DNA of 32,944 nt from Candidatus Hydrogenedentota bacterium. GTDB taxonomy: Bacteria; Hydrogenedentota; Hydrogenedentia; Hydrogenedentales; SLHB01. The stretch spans positions 1 to 32,944 of the forward strand of contig JAIBAQ010000057.1 of the NCBI GenBank assembly GCA_019695095.1, given 5' to 3'. Positions 13,592 through 28,650 of the stretch are shown in pieces. The notes beneath the pieces were generated by a model. The model was not told the origin of the DNA. It was given only the letters and a program-made list of their open reading frames with translations, and searched no databases. Each line of letters begins with the position of its first letter. Within the stretch, counting starts at the first letter, position 1. The translations under genes and the position numbers were made by a program.

Positions 13592-13880
13592 CTGCTGTCC
13601 TCCCCGGTAACGATGGCCACGCCCACACGCCAAAGGTGTATTGAACACTTCAACGAAGGGAGAATCAAGAGGATAATCCGGGCGTCTGGCAACCAGGTGA
13701 AATCCCGGGCTGTATACTGGATAGAGTTGCCGGCCACGTGGAGTAGAGGAATGCGGATTCTCTGTCAAGGCGAAGGCTTGGATCTGTCGGAGCAACATCT
13801 GCTGGATTGGATTGTCGCGATTACTGGGCGGGCGGCATCGTTATTATGTGGCCACGAACTGGACAAGTAATCAGGGCTTT
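13592..13880. other. Divergent intergenic region between the dehydrogenase and the sigma fusion
   Basis: 289 bases that should carry promoters in both directions. On the plus strand a TATACT hexamer at 13713-13718 resembles a -10 element for the sigma fusion, but I see no matching -35 at the right distance. The dehydrogenase ribosome binding site is at its left edge. No terminator or repeat was found. Confidence 0.35.
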
Positions 13881-16800
13881 ATGAGCGATTCCGAGATCAT
13901 CAGGCGAGTTCTTTCCGGTGAAGATGCTTTGTTCAGCCGGATTGTAAACCGGTATAGCGGGTACGTTTGGGCCATTTGTTCCAGCTATATCCGCAATCCG
14001 GCGGACAGGGAGGATGTCGCTCAGGAGACGTTTGTGGAGTGTTACCGAAAGCTGAACACGCTTCGGCAACCGGCGGCCTTCGGCCGGTGGCTCAGCCAGT
14101 TAGCGCGTAGGCGCTGTTTGATGTGGTTGCGCGCGGCGGGTCGCCGTGAAGCGAGTCTCGCCCGATACGAAGAGCAGATAGAAACCACCGCTGATATCGA
14201 GACTCATTCCGGAAGCGGTGAGTTGCGTCAAGGGATTCGCGACGCCATTGAAGGTTTGCCCGACGACTATCGTGAAGCGCTTCTTTTACGGTATGCCGAA
14301 GGCTATTCGACAGAAGAGGCGGCATCGTTTCTCGGAATCTCTTACGCGGCGATGCGCAAGCGGATCGAGCGGGCGCACCACATGCTCAAGGACCGGATAT
14401 GGAACGAGATCGAACCGGCACTTGCCGAAGAGAAACACGAGGATAGATATGTTCGGGGAATCCTCTCAGCCATTCCGTTTGGCAGTGCGACGTGGCTCGG
14501 CACAACAGCCCCGGCCGTAACGACAACGGCGGCCGCGGCAACCGTCAGTTCAAAGCTGGCACTGATAGGGGGGATTGCAGTCATGTCCAAGAAGGCAATG
14601 TTGATCGGTGGCGCGATCGTAATCTTGCTGGGTTTTGGGTATGTCGCCATACAGAAGGCAGGAGTCTCGAACACTGAGTCGCAGGGCGCTGCTGTTCCTC
14701 AGAAGTCTGAAAAGGAACTCGCGTCAACGATGACCGAAACGGCCGCGGATGTTGGCGCTCAGCCGGCAATTGCTGATGCAGCGACACCGCCTGATCAATC
14801 GAAGAAGTCCACGGCCATACCGCGAAAGCCCGCGCCGCCGTCGTCTGTTTCCGGCCATGTGAAGGACAGGGTAGGGAAGCCTATTGCAGGCGCGGATGTC
14901 CACGTGGAGGTCGGCAGCGATCGTTACACCAATGATGTAATCAAGACGTTTCATGCCAAGTCGAAAGAAGACGGCTCGTATGAGGTGGCGGGCATCGACG
15001 TGTTTGGGCGAGCGAACATCTTCGGGACGGCCACGGGTTTCGTGATGGAACGTCAGCACGAGAAGATCGTTCCAGGCGCGAAACTCACTGGCATCGACTT
15101 TTCGCTCTTGGAGGCCGCGTACTATGTCGCGGGACGGGTCGTGAACGAGAGCCAGATGCCCGTTCCCGGCGCTTCGGTGGACTCTCTCTATTTTGGGTAT
15201 GACGAGTCCGGCTTGGCGCACACGGCAAAGACGGGACAGACAACGGGCAACATCAGCGGGTCGAAGTTTGTGTTTGCCGTCACGGATGACAGTGGACACT
15301 TTGCCCTTGCGATACCCAGCGAGGGTTTGTGCGATCTGCGGGTGACGAAAGAGGGTTATGGCCCCGGCTTTTTCCCAAGCATCTCAACCGGCACCACTAA
15401 TGCGGAACTTGTGCTTCGCGCGGGCGGGGCGATATCCGGGGTTGTCTCAGACGAATCGGGTAAAGCCGTTGCCGGTGTGAATGTTCGTGTTCTTGGAGAG
15501 GCACTTCCCGGAGGGCTGGAGACTGGAGAGGTGCGAATTCAGAAGCTTCCCGTTCCCACCGTCACGGTGACTACGGACGACGCAGGGAAGTACCTCGCCG
15601 ATAAACTCGGCGAAGACTACGTATACACTGTGTCCGTTCCTGCTGAGGAGAAGTCGTTGGGCTCGGACGATTCCCAGGACCCCATACGCGTCCACATTGC
15701 GGAGGCCATGCGCGAACTCGATGAAGGTTCTTTCGGGGGAGCGAGTGCGCGCGCGATGAAGACGGGTATACACGTCAAGGCAGGAGTGACAACCACCGAC
15801 GTGAACCTGACGATAGGCGGCCCGAGCGATGCCGAAATTTGTGGCAAGGTGACCGATAGGACCAGCGGTAAGCCGGCCTGTCCGGTCGTAGTCACCGCGG
15901 CACTTGTGGGGGGCGCCAAGGAGCAGGCCAAGACGAAGTATTGGTTCCAAGCGGAAGCCGGGGCATCCGCGGTGACGCATCTGGACGGAACGTATGAGTT
16001 GTCGATTAACAATGTCGAGCAAGGCCAGCGATTCAGGATCAGCTATGCGTTCATGACAGAAGGAGGCAGTGCGTGGGAGCAGCCCGATGAAGAGGTGGCG
16101 GTTTTCGACCTGAATCCCGGGGACAAGAAACAACTCGACTTCAGTGTGGATGCGCCCATGACTGTTCCTGTCCGGTATGTGGATACGAAGGGCGGGCCGC
16201 TAGAAGGTATTTCCGCTGCAATGCGCCGGGCAGGGGGGAAAGGTGGTTGTGGCGGGACGCTTATGTCGGATGCCGAGGGGCGCGTTACTTTTCACGGTAT
16301 ACCGGGGAACGTGAGTCTTCAAGCCGTGGCATGGAAGGACACGGGCAATGACCTCATGACGCTTGGCGTCAGCGAGCCGTTCACGGGTCAGCCCGGGGAG
16401 ACGGTTCCCGAAGTAGTCGTAGTGTGCCGAATGCCCGGCAGCATCCAAGTCATGCTGACCTTTCCGGATGGGCGCGCGGTGGCGAATGCAAACGTGACGT
16501 GCGAGGCATCTCTTGCTGACGGCAGCGCGCCGCCTATTCAAGGCATGGTTACGACGGATGCCTCTGGCGCGATCCAAATCTTCGACATGGTTCCTGAAGG
16601 CACGTATCGAGGTGCAAGCGTGTCGTTGATCGATCCCAGTACGTCACAACCCTACTCCGCGTCGTCGGGAGGCTTCGAAGTGGCCACGGGCGCCATGACC
16701 GACTTGGGCACTCTCACCGTTCAACCAGAAAAAGACTTGTCACGTGTGGTGGAGTCGGCGGATTGGGGCAGGAAAGGAAACGAGGCAATCGCTGCTGTGT

Positions 16801-17147
16801 ACTCCAAGGAGGGTCTGGCGGCGCTAAGTAACTCGGGCATGATATTGAAGACCGGTTTCGCGTTGTATGACGTGGGCAAATACCAAGATGCCTTGGATGT
16901 GTTCGCGCAGATGTCCGCGGCCGCCGATAATGACACGATGTCCGCAGTCTCGTACATTTGGCAGGGGCAGATGCTAGACCTGCTTGGGAAACGGCAAGAC
17001 GCCATCGCGGCGTATACGACGGCCGCCAATATGAACGTGACGGGCGAAATGCGCCACGATCAGTTTGGACTCGCGTATTCACCGAGCGAATATGCCAAGG
17101 AACGATTGCAGACGCCGTTTACGCGCATTGAGAACCAGATGAAGTAG
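13881..17147 (+). CDS. Membrane-anchored ECF sigma factor fused to carboxypeptidase-regulatory and TPR-like domains
   Basis: A 1088-residue single-chain protein. Residues 18-85 are sigma70 region 2 (FSRIVNRYSGYVW, IRNPADREDVAQETFVECYRKL) and 118-172 are region 4 (LPDDYREALLLRYAEGYSTEEAASFLGIS), the DNA-binding parts of an ECF sigma factor. An Ala/Thr-rich hydrophobic stretch (201-234) and a membrane helix (LIGGAIVILLGFGYVAI, 241-257) follow. The remaining 830 or so residues are predicted to lie outside the cytoplasm: about six carboxypeptidase-regulatory-like beta-sandwich modules beginning near residues 321, 414, 516, 652, 760 and 854 (SGHVKDRVGKPIAGADV-type starts), then a TPR-like end (LYDVGKYQDALDVFAQM, LLGKRQDAIAAYTTAANM). 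The likely start is the ATG at 13881; a TTG at 13812 is less convincing. No anti-sigma gene is adjacent. Plausibly a sensor controls the tethered sigma domain; this is inference. Confidence 0.88.
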   Translation: MSDSEIIRRVLSGEDALFSRIVNRYSGYVWAICSSYIRNPADREDVAQETFVECYRKLNTLRQPAAFGRWLSQLARRRCLMWLRAAGRREASLARYEEQIETTADIETHSGSGELRQGIRDAIEGLPDDYREALLLRYAEGYSTEEAASFLGISYAAMRKRIERAHHMLKDRIWNEIEPALAEEKHEDRYVRGILSAIPFGSATWLGTTAPAVTTTAAAATVSSKLALIGGIAVMSKKAMLIGGAIVILLGFGYVAIQKAGVSNTESQGAAVPQKSEKELASTMTETAADVGAQPAIADAATPPDQSKKSTAIPRKPAPPSSVSGHVKDRVGKPIAGADVHVEVGSDRYTNDVIKTFHAKSKEDGSYEVAGIDVFGRANIFGTATGFVMERQHEKIVPGAKLTGIDFSLLEAAYYVAGRVVNESQMPVPGASVDSLYFGYDESGLAHTAKTGQTTGNISGSKFVFAVTDDSGHFALAIPSEGLCDLRVTKEGYGPGFFPSISTGTTNAELVLRAGGAISGVVSDESGKAVAGVNVRVLGEALPGGLETGEVRIQKLPVPTVTVTTDDAGKYLADKLGEDYVYTVSVPAEEKSLGSDDSQDPIRVHIAEAMRELDEGSFGGASARAMKTGIHVKAGVTTTDVNLTIGGPSDAEICGKVTDRTSGKPACPVVVTAALVGGAKEQAKTKYWFQAEAGASAVTHLDGTYELSINNVEQGQRFRISYAFMTEGGSAWEQPDEEVAVFDLNPGDKKQLDFSVDAPMTVPVRYVDTKGGPLEGISAAMRRAGGKGGCGGTLMSDAEGRVTFHGIPGNVSLQAVAWKDTGNDLMTLGVSEPFTGQPGETVPEVVVVCRMPGSIQVMLTFPDGRAVANANVTCEASLADGSAPPIQGMVTTDASGAIQIFDMVPEGTYRGASVSLIDPSTSQPYSASSGGFEVATGAMTDLGTLTVQPEKDLSRVVESADWGRKGNEAIAAVYSKEGLAALSNSGMILKTGFALYDVGKYQDALDVFAQMSAAADNDTMSAVSYIWQGQMLDLLGKRQDAIAAYTTAANMNVTGEMRHDQFGLAYSPSEYAKERLQTPFTRIENQMK

Positions 17148-24294: not shown

Positions 24295-25896
24295 TCAGGA
24301 ACGATTGCGGCGGCGTCGCGACTGGAGTTCGGCCAGGACCAAGCCAAGCGCGGCCAATCCCAACGGGGCCAAGCCCGTGAGACCCGCCTGAAGCGGAACG
24401 TTGCCTGCTTTTGCGCTCGCGAAGCACGAGGCTCCGGGGGACACGCCATGCTGATAGTATCCGCCGGTGTTGTAGTTTCCGGCGTCGTCTTGACATACGT
24501 TATCCGGAATGGTGATGGTCACCGGTCCGGTTACGGTAACAGGCAGCAAATTGAACGTGTAGACAGCGTCTTCGCCGCTGAACGTATTTGAAGAGTGGAA
24601 CTGCGCACCCGTGACGATAATGTCGCTCTGAGTAAATCCAGTCACCGGTTCGCTGAAGGTCACGAGGACTTGGATAACCGTGCTGATGCTGCTGGGATTG
24701 GGGGTGACGCTCGATATCGCTACCGATGGCGACGCCGTATCGACTGTGCGTTTGAATTGGGTAGCAGCTTTATTGGGATTTCCTCCCGCGTCTTTTGCGG
24801 AACCCTCCGGGATATCGACCGTGATCTGACCGGAGATGTTGGGAACGAGATCGAAGGTATAGGTGGTGCCCGAGCCGTCGAAGTCCTGAGCGGTGCATCC
24901 GCCGATATCGAGGTCCGTGACATCGAATCCGGTTACGCTTTCGCTGAACGTGACCGTGACGGGAATCGGGTTCTGGCTAGTGGTTTCGGTCGTCGATGAG
25001 GTGATGGTAACGGTTGGAGCAATGAGGTCGAAATTGACCACTTGCCCTTTTTCCGTGGCGCTCATGCACGTAAACAGGGGTTCAGGAAGCGTCAAAAGCT
25101 CACTGCACTTCGCTTCGGCGTCGCTGATACTCGGCTTTGCGGTAAGCAGGGTCATAAAGATGTATGTTTGTCCGGCAGGCAGGCTGAACGAGTATTCCCA
25201 CGAGACATTTGCCGTGTTATTGACAAAAGAGACCGTTGAGGGAGCGATGCGGCGGCCCGGACCATAGAGGACATGGCCAAGGCGGGGGCTGTTCGATAAG
25301 CCGCCCCCGTCGTAATCCTTGAACGTAACAACCCAGCGGTCGGAGGTCGTCGCGGTATCGAGGGGCGCGGTGGATGTGCTGCCGATTAGCGTATTGGTTC
25401 CCGCGCCCATTGTTCCGACGAGCGTGACGGTGACGGTTTCGGAACTTCCCGAGTTGTTTTGGACGACATTCAGCCACCGGCAAAACGCATCGTCTTCCGG
25501 GACAAACACTTTGCGTTGTACGGTGAGGTTGCCGATGGTCTGCGGCGCAAATACCACTTGCCGGTCAACGAAAGAGGTTTCGCCTTCGCAGGTGGTGGTT
25601 ACCGTGCCGTTTTGGTTGTAGGCGACGCCGTTTACGAGAAGTCCGGCGTAGCCTTCTACGCCGTTGGTGAGCAGTGCGGTGGTTGTGCCGCCCAGACTCG
25701 TGGTGACTCCCGTCACGGAAGTCGTGTATTCGGCCTCTTTCGCCGCGCCCGACGCCGACACCGAGGTAGTGAAGGTTACATCGGTGTTGATGTCGAATTG
25801 GACGCCAGAAGCGTCAACGAGTGAAACGACGGCTCCAGCCGTCGGAACCAGAGCGGTCACGATGACCGCTGCCAGGAGATAGGTCTTCCAAGTCAT
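24295..25896 (-). CDS. Secreted Ig-like domain protein with C-terminal anchor/sorting tail
   Basis: A 533-residue cell-surface protein. The start is the ATG at 25896 (a TTG at 25908 is in frame). A signal peptide (TYLLAAVIVTALVPTAGA) leads into a Thr/Ser-rich beta domain of about 250 residues of no recognised family. Two tandem bacterial Ig-like modules follow, each with the VTVTFSESVTGFDVTDL / VLVTFSEPVTGFTQSDI pattern of the Big_12/BapA-type fold and ending before VDTASPSVAIS or the tail. The C-terminus has ASCFASAKAGN, a hydrophobic helix (GLTGLAPLGLAALGLVLAEL) and SRRRRNRS: a Cys-helix-Arg layout like CTERM protein-sorting signals. It therefore probably ends up anchored or processed at the surface. 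Its own promoter is visible at 25987-26015. Confidence 0.82.
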   Translation of the reverse strand: MTWKTYLLAAVIVTALVPTAGAVVSLVDASGVQFDINTDVTFTTSVSASGAAKEAEYTTSVTGVTTSLGGTTTALLTNGVEGYAGLLVNGVAYNQNGTVTTTCEGETSFVDRQVVFAPQTIGNLTVQRKVFVPEDDAFCRWLNVVQNNSGSSETVTVTLVGTMGAGTNTLIGSTSTAPLDTATTSDRWVVTFKDYDGGGLSNSPRLGHVLYGPGRRIAPSTVSFVNNTANVSWEYSFSLPAGQTYIFMTLLTAKPSISDAEAKCSELLTLPEPLFTCMSATEKGQVVNFDLIAPTVTITSSTTETTSQNPIPVTVTFSESVTGFDVTDLDIGGCTAQDFDGSGTTYTFDLVPNISGQITVDIPEGSAKDAGGNPNKAATQFKRTVDTASPSVAISSVTPNPSSISTVIQVLVTFSEPVTGFTQSDIIVTGAQFHSSNTFSGEDAVYTFNLLPVTVTGPVTITIPDNVCQDDAGNYNTGGYYQHGVSPGASCFASAKAGNVPLQAGLTGLAPLGLAALGLVLAELQSRRRRNRS

Positions 25897-26143: not shown

Positions 26144-28450
26144 TCAGAAAAGCGCTGGGCAGCGCTTGAAACCGAGGCGACGCACTTGGGTTTGCTGGAA
26201 CACTTTTTCGACGAAAGCGGCGATGGCGTCTGTGGAGATGTCAGAGTCGGCTATGGGAACCGTTGTAAGTGCTTCTGGCTGCAAGAGATCGTGGAATTGT
26301 CCCTCGCTTCGAGCGCGCTCCATCAGGGTAAAGCCTGCGCGGCAAGCCAAGCGTGTGCCTCCGGTGTAGTAGGGGTCCTGCGTGAGCGGGTCGGCCTTGA
26401 CCAGCCGGGCGGTCTGTTCGGGGAAATGCTGCAAGTCTACGGCTGCAAACCGACGCATGATCGGTTCTTCCTCCACCGACGCGATGGTAACCTGGATATG
26501 ATCCTTGGCCGCGGCGGCAGTGATTCCCTTGTGAACGCTCTGCAGTATGCGGCGGCCCAGCTCCGCAGCTTCGGCCGCGGAGTGGAGTTCGATGCCGAGG
26601 AGCGACTGAACGCATTCGTTCAGGCCTACAACGCCGACGGAACACCCCACCTGCTCGATATCGAGGTAGCGCCGGCCGGCATGTTCGAAGGCAAGCAGGC
26701 TCAGGGGGCCAATGCTGCGCAGGGCGAGGAGCCGCAGGGTGAACACGCGCTTCTCCACGAGAGCACGAACGGCCATTGCGCCGAGATTTTCGATCTCTTG
26801 GAGGGTGTTTTCGATGTCCCCACCGCGATATGCCGCGCGAGGGAGGTTTATGGACACGACGCCCAAGCACATGTGCCGGGGCTGCCAAGGTTGCAGGGTG
26901 GAGTCCACATCCCAATGGGGTTCGCGGTCGAAGACAAAATGCAGTCTGCCGCCCAGGGCCGTTTCGCTGACTGCTCGAGTCAGGAAATCCCGATGTCCGG
27001 TGGTTCGGAAGAAACCTTCCGAAATACGAATGGTCGCGCGAAGGCCCGAATTGAGCGGGTGCCGAGAATGGCCTTCCTGCAAGGCTTCCACGACTTCTAG
27101 GGCGAAACGGTGAGCGATGGAGAGATACTCGCCATATGTGCGACCCGTGGGGATACCTCCGGGGCCGATGGCTTCAGTTTGCCTCAGATGATCGGGCATC
27201 GCCCATTCGATGCCAATCTCGGTCACGGGCATTCTGCGATGGGCGAGACTATTTGGAGTGAATCCGAAAACCAGCAACCGGGCCAGCCTACGTAACTCGC
27301 GCGCGTCGGCGTCGGCCAGGAACGGGGCCATCAGCACGTTGAAGGCATCCCAGGAGTTGTAACCAGAGATGTGACTCTGGAGCGCGGCATTAAATTGGGC
27401 GGTCTGGGCGATCAGGGCTTCCGCATGGAGTGGGGGCGGGGCAAACCTGCCGCCCGTGCGAAATGCCATTCCGAATCGCTTCACGAACTCTACCCAATGC
27501 CGTCCTCCGTGCAGCCGGTCGATGTGCCCGATATCGTGGATGTGCAGATCGCCGCGGAGGTGCGAGTCGGCGACTTCCGCCGTGTATACGCGGGACAGAG
27601 CGAACTCTCGTTTGACATGTTCTGCCAGCGCGAGGTCGGTCATGGCGGGATCATGGACCTCTTCGGATTCGCCGTGGTTGGGCGCGCAGATGATACGCTC
27701 GGCGTCGTAGAGCGGCACGCCCAGGCGCATGTGCTTGCAGCGGTAGTCTTCCAGGCCGTGCTCTATCAACTTGGCGTCGACCAGTTCGCGAATCAGGGGC
27801 GCCGTGAGCGCGGTCACTTTGGCAGTCGTGATTTGGCTCTCGACCTCGATGGCAATCATGGATGCCACATCCTGCGCGATACCCGTCTCGCGGACCAGGG
27901 CTTCAACGATGCAGTCGCGATTCCAGACAGCCATGCGGTCATCGCTCGTGCGGACATTGAGCAAGTGGGTAACGCTGCTTTCAGAGCGGCCCTGCGATTT
28001 TCCGGCTTCCTCAAGTTCCGCGAGCAAGACCCGGATGTCGCCTTGGCGCAGCATGCGAATGCGCGACCGCTTGTCGCGATAGCGCGCGTAGGCGAGCCCC
28101 GTCTTTGCATGGCCCATTTCGATGAGGACTTTTTCGACGGCGTCGTGGACGTGGTCGACGGTCGGAATGGCTCCGTCCATGGACTTCGCGAGATAGATGG
28201 CGACGCCTGCCGCCAAGCCCTCGGCTCTATCGAAATCGTCGCCGCCGATCGATTGCGCGGCTTTGAAAATGGCTTCGGCTATCTTGCGCGTTTCGAAGGA
28301 TACTTCGCGCCCGTCGCGCTTGCGGATTTTGGCGATGGGTTCAGGTGGGGCCGCGGAAAGGGCAGGGAATGAGAGTTGAGCATCGAACGCCCCCTCGCGG
28401 GGTCTACTGCCCGAAGTACTGTCAATCCCCGAGAATAAATCGTCGTACAC
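26144..28450 (-). CDS. ATP-cone NrdD-like protein lacking glycyl-radical and catalytic Cys residues
   Basis: About 768 residues from a GTG at 28450. Upstream ATG (28519) and TTG (28537) starts would place a terminator hairpin inside the coding region, so they are less likely; the start remains uncertain. Residues 39-131 are an ATP-cone (IRKRDGREVSFETRKIAEAIFKAA), the nucleotide-sensing domain of ribonucleotide reductases. The rest follows the class III reductase NrdD: GDLHIHDIG (300-308), the SGYNSWDAFNVLMAPFLA segment, GVVSINLPRAAY (530-541), SVGVVGLNECVQSL. Yet the Cys expected after HIHD (as in YCAGWDL) is His314 (RLHGGRHW), the CCRL-type motif before GVVSINLPR is missing, and the protein stops without the Cys4 zinc site or the glycyl-radical loop. 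No NrdG activase is nearby. It is therefore probably not a working reductase; a nucleotide-sensing or structural role is speculation. Confidence 0.75.
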   Translation of the reverse strand: MYDDLFSGIDSTSGSRPREGAFDAQLSFPALSAAPPEPIAKIRKRDGREVSFETRKIAEAIFKAAQSIGGDDFDRAEGLAAGVAIYLAKSMDGAIPTVDHVHDAVEKVLIEMGHAKTGLAYARYRDKRSRIRMLRQGDIRVLLAELEEAGKSQGRSESSVTHLLNVRTSDDRMAVWNRDCIVEALVRETGIAQDVASMIAIEVESQITTAKVTALTAPLIRELVDAKLIEHGLEDYRCKHMRLGVPLYDAERIICAPNHGESEEVHDPAMTDLALAEHVKREFALSRVYTAEVADSHLRGDLHIHDIGHIDRLHGGRHWVEFVKRFGMAFRTGGRFAPPPLHAEALIAQTAQFNAALQSHISGYNSWDAFNVLMAPFLADADARELRRLARLLVFGFTPNSLAHRRMPVTEIGIEWAMPDHLRQTEAIGPGGIPTGRTYGEYLSIAHRFALEVVEALQEGHSRHPLNSGLRATIRISEGFFRTTGHRDFLTRAVSETALGGRLHFVFDREPHWDVDSTLQPWQPRHMCLGVVSINLPRAAYRGGDIENTLQEIENLGAMAVRALVEKRVFTLRLLALRSIGPLSLLAFEHAGRRYLDIEQVGCSVGVVGLNECVQSLLGIELHSAAEAAELGRRILQSVHKGITAAAAKDHIQVTIASVEEEPIMRRFAAVDLQHFPEQTARLVKADPLTQDPYYTGGTRLACRAGFTLMERARSEGQFHDLLQPEALTTVPIADSDISTDAIAAFVEKVFQQTQVRRLGFKRCPALF

Positions 28451-28471
28451 GGCGCCCCGAACCCAAGTAGA

Positions 28472-28504
28472 AGAAAAAAGACCCCTTCCGCAACGAGGGG
28501 TCTT
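28472..28504 (-). terminator. Rho-independent terminator (minus strand)
   Basis: A 9-bp perfect stem (AAGACCCCT at 28478-28486 with its complement at 28496-28504), 9-base loop. Read on the minus strand it is followed by six Us (the A-run at 28474-28479). It lies about 200 bases downstream of the small secreted-protein gene and directly before the NrdD-like gene, separating the two transcription units. Confidence 0.85.
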
Positions 28505-28650
28505 CGCAGTGTATCGCATGACCGGCGAATCGTGCAAGGGATATATCTACGCGAAGAGGCGGGGCAATTCACGTGTGTATGCAAGGACCTTGCCGTTAGC
28601 GATGCTCGGAACTTCGCATGTCCGGACAGGCCTGGATCTTCATGATGTGA

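Follow-up and report, generated by a model that had tools for sequence, protein, structure and literature searches.

An NrdD homologue without class III catalytic residues is maintained across Candidatus Hydrogenedentota and may act as a nucleotide sensor

An NrdD homologue with two ATP-cones

The window, that is, the whole stretch of DNA analysed here (32,944 nucleotides), corresponds to contig C57 of a 6.77-Mb genome of Candidatus Hydrogenedentota assembled in 405 contigs (G000). Its minus strand carries an uninterrupted reading frame (26144-28537) encoding a homologue of the class III reductase NrdD (Table 1). The protein was matched by the Pfam NRDD profile with 154.7 bits and by the ATP-cone profile with 69.7 bits (curated cut-off 25.8), which bears out an earlier sequence-only reading of this locus as an NrdD homologue with an ATP-cone. 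The NRDD match covers profile positions 9-500 of 562, so that the zinc/glycyl end is missing from the protein, and no Zn-ribbon was found in the Pfam scan, which gave NRDD and ATP-cone only.

Similarity to orthologues begins only at about residue 42-47 of the longer ORF, and a hairpin followed by a T run (AAGACCCC ... GGGGTCTT TTTT) lies within this ORF. The true start is therefore probably the GTG at 28450, in line with the start implied by the sequence-only reading. A promoter and terminator scan gave nothing useful and does not list this hairpin, the loop of which exceeds the length allowed by the scan.

The sequence-only reading had noted one retained ATP-cone; this cone is present, and the protein has a second one that was missed. 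Cone 2 coincides with a second, weak Pfam ATP-cone stretch, shows a cone topology in the AlphaFold2 secondary structure of the window protein and matches cone 1 in a profile-profile comparison with a probability of 94.8%. An ATP-cone match (E <= 0.1) was obtained for all 27 family members scanned. In cone 1, the residues K76, R77 and G79 (alignment numbering) are kept in 49, 47 and 49, respectively, of 49 rows of the family alignment described below. According to the accessible part of PMC4390871, two ATP-cones occur in 6% of class III NrdD; tandem N-terminal cones are thus shared with these proteins, which are, by contrast, counted as reductases.

The AlphaFold2 model of the window protein, built from 17 sequences, reached a mean pLDDT of 80.5, the N-terminal tail being disordered (pLDDT 34-51). 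The best structure matches were class III reductases, namely T. maritima 4con_B (Z 33.1, 482 residues, 2.8 A) and P. copri 8p2c_A (E 6e-21). The structure prediction called for by the sequence-only reading thus returned an NrdD barrel, and the model indicates that this fold is kept in the window protein.

Table 1. Coordinates of the features in the window and of glycyl-loop ORFs at other loci
Feature	Position	Strand	Basis or remark
NrdD pseudoenzyme gene	26144..28450	(-)	768 aa from GTG 28450; open frame back to 28537
Hairpin then T run, 5' of start	28474..28504	(-)	read directly from sequence
N-terminal tail motif EGAFDAQLSFP, clamp-binding-like	28364..28396	(-)	family consensus EGxFDxQ(L/M)S(L/F)PxP
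ATP-cone 1	28064..28330	(-)	PF03477, residues 41-129
ATP-cone 2, sequence degenerate	27722..27964	(-)	about residues 163-243
NrdD-type barrel, catalytically empty	26180..27649	(-)	Pfam NRDD and structure matches
HIHD (HxHD), retained triphosphate-contact motif	27533..27544	(-)	sequence and alignment
Finger-loop deletion site, between FVFD and VSINLP	26852..26938	(-)	alignment
Separate glycyl-loop ORFs	L003:7723-8100, L008:3098-3436, L006:8381-8704, L007:6998-7165		loop RVTGY/RIVGY/RVVGY
NrdDs of other clades, glycyl loop in following short ORF	L013:4889-5098, L018:8101-8286, L020:8352-8528, L029:7958-8227
Free-standing NrdD glycyl-domain proteins	L201:2688-3164, L202:3423-3875, L203:2713-3129, L199:3049-3336

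The residues of class III chemistry are absent

Fifty-nine rows of this family from 58 genomes (hereafter dead rows, and dead copies for the proteins) were aligned with catalytic relatives. Residue names are those of the P. copri NrdD (PcNrdD) and, like the role of the HxHD motif, were taken from the accessible part of PMC11226230. At the column of Cys171, the second catalytic Cys on barrel strand 1, a Cys is found in none of the 59 dead rows (one of which, G012, is a fragment short of this column) and a Ser in 27. The window copy has a Gly there. The sequence-only reading, which had described a His in place of the first catalytic Cys, was thus right about the loss of the Cys and wrong about the residue, the His standing one column earlier. 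At the column of the radical Cys416 in the finger loop, Cys is again found in 0/59 rows, with 58 gaps and one Ala. In the window copy, the alignment to catalytic relatives shows that the finger loop is deleted together with its Cys pair, the pair already reported as gone ahead of GVVSINLPR, and the NxN flap is lost, as it is in all dead rows covering that position. None of the 59 dead rows has any of the four Zn Cys or the glycyl Gly, rows G001a, G004 and G064 stopping at contig ends ahead of this region. A conserved Cys at the catalytic positions, which would have spoken against the sequence-only reading, therefore appears in no row, and the Cys columns common to the dead rows lie outside the catalytic positions.

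As had been stated from the sequence, the window protein ends before the zinc site and the glycyl loop; in the frames that follow its TGA, stops appear within about 30 bases, and no zinc or glycyl motif was found when these frames were examined to base 25801. By its sequence, the dead copy cannot run class III RNR chemistry, having no thiyl Cys, no glycyl loop and no zinc site. The HIHD motif, recognised in the earlier reading, is intact in the window copy. Across the family, the two positions of HxH are His in 49 and 39 of the 59 dead rows and the Asp of HxHD is present in 18. Since HxH is still His in most rows, the former nucleotide pocket may still have a function.

The complete catalytic set lies in one chain in the relatives L004, L010, L031 and L032; of this set, L003, L006, L008 and L012 lack only the Gly in cis. 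A separate glycyl-domain ORF exists at L003 and L008, the sisters of the dead family, and also at L006 and L007, and the dead copy might likewise be one half of a split reductase that receives its glycyl domain from another gene. We regard this as highly improbable: the radical Cys and its loop are also gone, and a PF13597 search of 68 genomes for a glycyl domain acting in trans gave, as the sole free NRDD C-terminal piece, a 67-aa frame in G016, a genome that also has a truncated intact nrdD.

A single clade under purifying selection

Relatives of the dead copy were found in 61 of the 68 sampled Candidatus Hydrogenedentota genomes, which are all the genomes returned for the phylum. Fifty-five genomes were matched at E <= 1e-30 and six more (G036, G041, G044, G046, G049 and G051) each contain a divergent version within one long frame; the dead copy was not found in the remaining seven (G015, G016, G024, G029, G052, G057 and G063). 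In the maximum-likelihood tree, the 57 dead rows used form one clade with a support of 100, and its sisters, catalytic NrdDs with nrdR as a neighbour, are the complete L004 and the split L003 and L008. Pairwise omega values were 0.05-0.29 in 18 of 19 pairs, the nineteenth being saturated, and stayed within 0.05-0.29 in the nine pairs with dS < 1; some of the frames take in upstream noncoding bases, which raises omega. The orthologues with the same losses that the sequence-only reading had called for thus exist and are under purifying selection.

In a single draft genome, the missing catalytic residues could equally reflect gene decay or a faulty assembly. Against this stand the long open frames in most of the 58 genomes, the single clade and the omega values, and the chance of such an artefact is negligible. 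The dead family is under purifying selection and is not a broken gene; that the protein is both non-catalytic and under selection is almost certain.

In 12 of the 58 fetched genomes the dead gene directly follows nrdR, as nrdD does in 9 of 10 outside relatives; the divergent member of G049 also adjoins nrdR. This shared adjacency points to an nrdR-nrdD operon as the probable origin of the gene, and by its sequence relations the dead copy descends from a catalytic NrdD whose gene adjoined nrdR. A phage origin was considered and set aside, as the viral contigs searched held no relative of the window protein. At a Planctomycetota locus (L011:5476-8100), a second catalytically empty NrdD is found directly behind nrdR, without the tail motif. 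It appears to be a dead copy of separate origin, its position in the tree being unsure because of a long branch (2.12).

Other reductases of the cell and NrdR boxes

Whether the genome has another RNR was a question raised by the sequence-only reading, and the host genome has two, an intact NrdD on contig C249 and a class II RNR on contig C74. An intact NrdD (at least 275 bits) was detected in 39 of the 68 genomes, G000 included; among the 61 genomes with a dead copy, 35 also have an intact NrdD and 26 do not. In many genomes only the dead copy was seen at first, with no match to PF02867 (9/68 have one, G000 among them), and we considered the dead copy as their sole reductase. This idea was rejected when the TIGR02505 model revealed a class II reductase in 62/68 genomes, including all 26 that have a dead copy without an intact NrdD, so that in none of the 61 is the dead copy the only reductase.

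Of 25 intact nrdD genes scanned in the phylum with an NrdR-box consensus and an allowed spacing of 30-33, 17 are preceded by paired NrdR boxes (z > 3). By the same search, no pair was found upstream of 56 dead genes, the scan covering the stretch directly ahead of the dead gene also in the 12 cases behind nrdR, where a box could lie before nrdR; nor was any found upstream of seven class II genes. On this evidence, the control of the dead gene appears to differ from that of a reductase gene, and these sequence data suggest that its product is not a standby reductase. At the loci L063-L090, NrdR-box-like pairs 30-33 bases apart lie upstream of nrdD, the second site often being ACACTTGACTTTGTGG or close to it.

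Two explanations would connect the dead copy to these reductase systems. In the first, its cones form mixed oligomers with the cone of NrdR and thereby tune the repression of the active nrdD. NrdR, the RNR repressor and the neighbour in the 12 genomes mentioned above, is likewise a non-catalytic protein with an ATP-cone nucleotide sensor; it senses nucleotides through this cone and oligomerises, as far as the accessible literature describes it, and paired NrdR boxes do exist in the phylum. The dead copy differs from NrdR in lacking the Zn-ribbon DNA-binding domain and in having two cones and a barrel instead. An NrdR partnership seems unlikely, since the adjacency is shared by 9 of 10 outside relatives and is thus ancestral, is not seen in most of the phylum, and would leave the new tail motif unexplained; moreover, no intact nrdD was found in 26 of the 61 genomes with a dead copy. 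In the second, the dead copy and the intact NrdD of the cell form a mixed dimer over the former dimer interface, in which the dead copy serves as a regulatory subunit. NrdD functions as a dimer, according to the accessible part of PMC11226230, and an intact NrdD is available in 35 genomes, that of the window included. We consider this improbable in view of the 26 genomes that have the dead copy and a class II reductase and in which no intact NrdD was found, and of the distance between the two proteins (154 versus 649 bits to the same profile).

Constraint has shifted to the cones and the tail

Mean pairwise identity was calculated by region for 49 of the 59 dead rows, the 8 divergent rows and 2 fragments being left out, and for 9 catalytic relatives. 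Cone 1 is as conserved among the dead copies as among the catalytic relatives (0.59 versus 0.60) and cone 2 more so (0.56 versus 0.38). By contrast, identity falls to 0.27-0.37 in the parts of the barrel (0.47-0.62 in the catalytic relatives) and to 0.22 in the finger region (0.56), whereas it reaches 0.60 in the tail motif (0.09). As judged from these identities, the old catalytic half is relaxed and the sensing half is unchanged or tightened; selection now acts chiefly on the two ATP-cones and the new tail motif, with the barrel as a degenerate scaffold.

This pattern bears on the proposal, made from the sequence alone, that a dead reductase with an ATP-cone would sense dNTP/ATP or have acquired a new reaction. 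A new reaction of the barrel would agree with HxH being kept in most rows and with a modelled barrel that still has an NrdD-like fold. The barrel is nevertheless the least conserved part of the protein, its invariant residues are scattered, and the Cys columns that the dead rows share are not catalytic, so that we see only a slim chance for this explanation. Because the two cones and the tail motif are the most conserved parts, the conservation pattern favours sensing.

The tail motif EGxFDxQ(L/M)S(L/F)PxP precedes cone 1. It is present, with D-x-Q-(L/M), in 50 of 57 tails; the tail of G035 reads QLSIPL without the Asp, and the motif is absent in the six divergent members. Three of these (G036, G046 and G041 of genus g24, at L153, L154 and L155) have a different conserved tail, FLFDLFGFP...P(I/L)QG. 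The exact sequence QLSLPL is present in six genomes (G025, G030, G031, G032, G037 and G053). In the accessible parts of PMC12309361 and PMC3836487, QLSLPL is the clamp-binding hexapeptide of Hda, and the former gives QxxLF as the general clamp-binding consensus. The pattern Q(L/M)x(L/M)x(L/F/I/M) is found in 27 of 50 tails and Q(L/M)xF in 20 of 50, Phe at position 4 being common in the family of the window; the window copy itself, QLSFPA, departs from the clamp consensus in its fourth and sixth residues. The EGxFD flank ahead of the Gln is equally conserved and is unaccounted for by clamp binding.

A further QxxLF-like site is found near the start, upstream of the motif, in 13 of 50 tails (for example QGDLF, QEDLF, QGELF, QDELF and QESLF), compared with a mean of 0.34 and never more than 3 in 2000 shuffles, a test that is generous because the pattern was picked after inspection of the tails and the rows are related. 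In the same phylum, DinB/ImuB-like proteins carry QLRLF, QMSLF, QLDLF or QLSLF in many of the loci read, and one DinB ends with QMTFPF; several loci showed no such site, unless a wrong reading frame had been taken. The tail pattern also occurs in about 15 other places; among the five loci outside the family that were read, one is a RuvB start and the rest are unrelated.

A proposed role at the sliding clamp

The dead copy shares with class III NrdD (PF13597; P. copri, S. thermophilus, T. maritima and T4 enzymes) its fold, the order of ATP-cone and barrel, HxHD, many scaffold residues and its origin. It differs by the absence of the radical Cys, the second Cys, the finger loop, the NxN flap, the Zn site and the glycyl domain, by its new tail and by the NrdR boxes, none of which was found upstream of the dead genes. 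The best explanation overall, to which we give an even chance, is that this non-catalytic NrdD descendant senses nucleotides and is probably held at the beta sliding clamp. Considered separately, a role in nucleotide sensing is likely from the sequences, and the tail is fairly probably a tether to the clamp, judging from its motif; the chance of both together is slightly below even. The two ATP-cones would respond to the ratio of ATP to dATP, as the cones of NrdD and NrdR do. The tail would dock the protein on the beta sliding clamp, so that the nucleotide state would be sensed at the replication fork or relayed to it. Possible outputs include the slowing of a polymerase, a RIDA-like control or the recruitment of the class II reductase. 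More tentatively, we propose a phylum-wide checkpoint-like protein, in which a dead RNR would sit on the replication clamp via one or two clamp-binding peptides and its tandem cones would report the local ATP/dATP.

Hda is an AAA+ protein. As in Hda/HdaA, the clamp-bound DnaA regulator, the N-terminal QLSLPL stands ahead of a nucleotide-binding protein, and it is identical in six orthologues of the dead copy; clamp binding is demonstrated for Hda, whereas it is proposed here for the dead copy. The cytomegalovirus proteins M45/UL45, R1 homologues descended from an RNR large subunit, have no catalytic residues and serve another role, and are RNR pseudoenzymes already known elsewhere; these are class I, viral and of a different role, whereas the dead copy is class III, bacterial and phylum-wide. 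No non-catalytic class III reductase was found in the accessible parts of the open-licence literature searched.

How the supply of DNA precursors is coupled to fork movement in bacteria is an old question, for which the dead family offers a concrete candidate; to our knowledge, no dedicated bacterial dNTP sensor at the fork has been described. Should the tail indeed act as a tether, the dNTP state would be linked to the replisome in a new way, and the checkpoint-like reading, if true, would make that link between dNTP sensing and the replisome a direct physical one.

Detached glycyl domains and other observations

At four loci (L003, L006, L007 and L008), the glycyl loop lies outside the NrdD frame, in a short ORF of 56-126 aa from stop to stop that follows directly downstream (Table 1), and the upstream NrdD ORF keeps the catalytic Cys. 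The glycyl pieces of L003 and L008 are alike in their new N-terminal part. The sister lineage suggests a possible beginning, in which the glycyl domain became a separate gene; in the dead family the chemistry was lost altogether. Short-ORF glycyl loops are also present behind NrdDs of other clades and may reflect repeated origins of the split, or else frameshifts.

Free-standing NrdD glycyl-domain proteins were observed as well. In G108, whose Scalindua locus L012 has an altered glycyl loop of its own, a 159-aa glycyl-domain protein is encoded elsewhere, and G109, which has a complete NrdD (L031), encodes two more, of 139 and 151 aa. Three glycyl-domain relatives (L237-L239) are located on IMG/VR viral contigs. 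These free-standing domains may be detached catalytic subunits or YfiD-like spare parts. In the accessible part of PMC8683613, such spare parts are validated only for pyruvate formate-lyase, and the free-standing NrdD domains bear on glycyl radical enzymes beyond it.

Two further ORFs have unusual arrangements. At L010:776-4738, an NrdD ORF of 1321 residues contains an intein-like insert starting at the radical Cys pair. In the window, a single ORF on the plus strand (13812-17147) has a carboxypeptidase-regulatory-like domain behind sigma-70 regions 2 and 4, apparently an unusual fusion.
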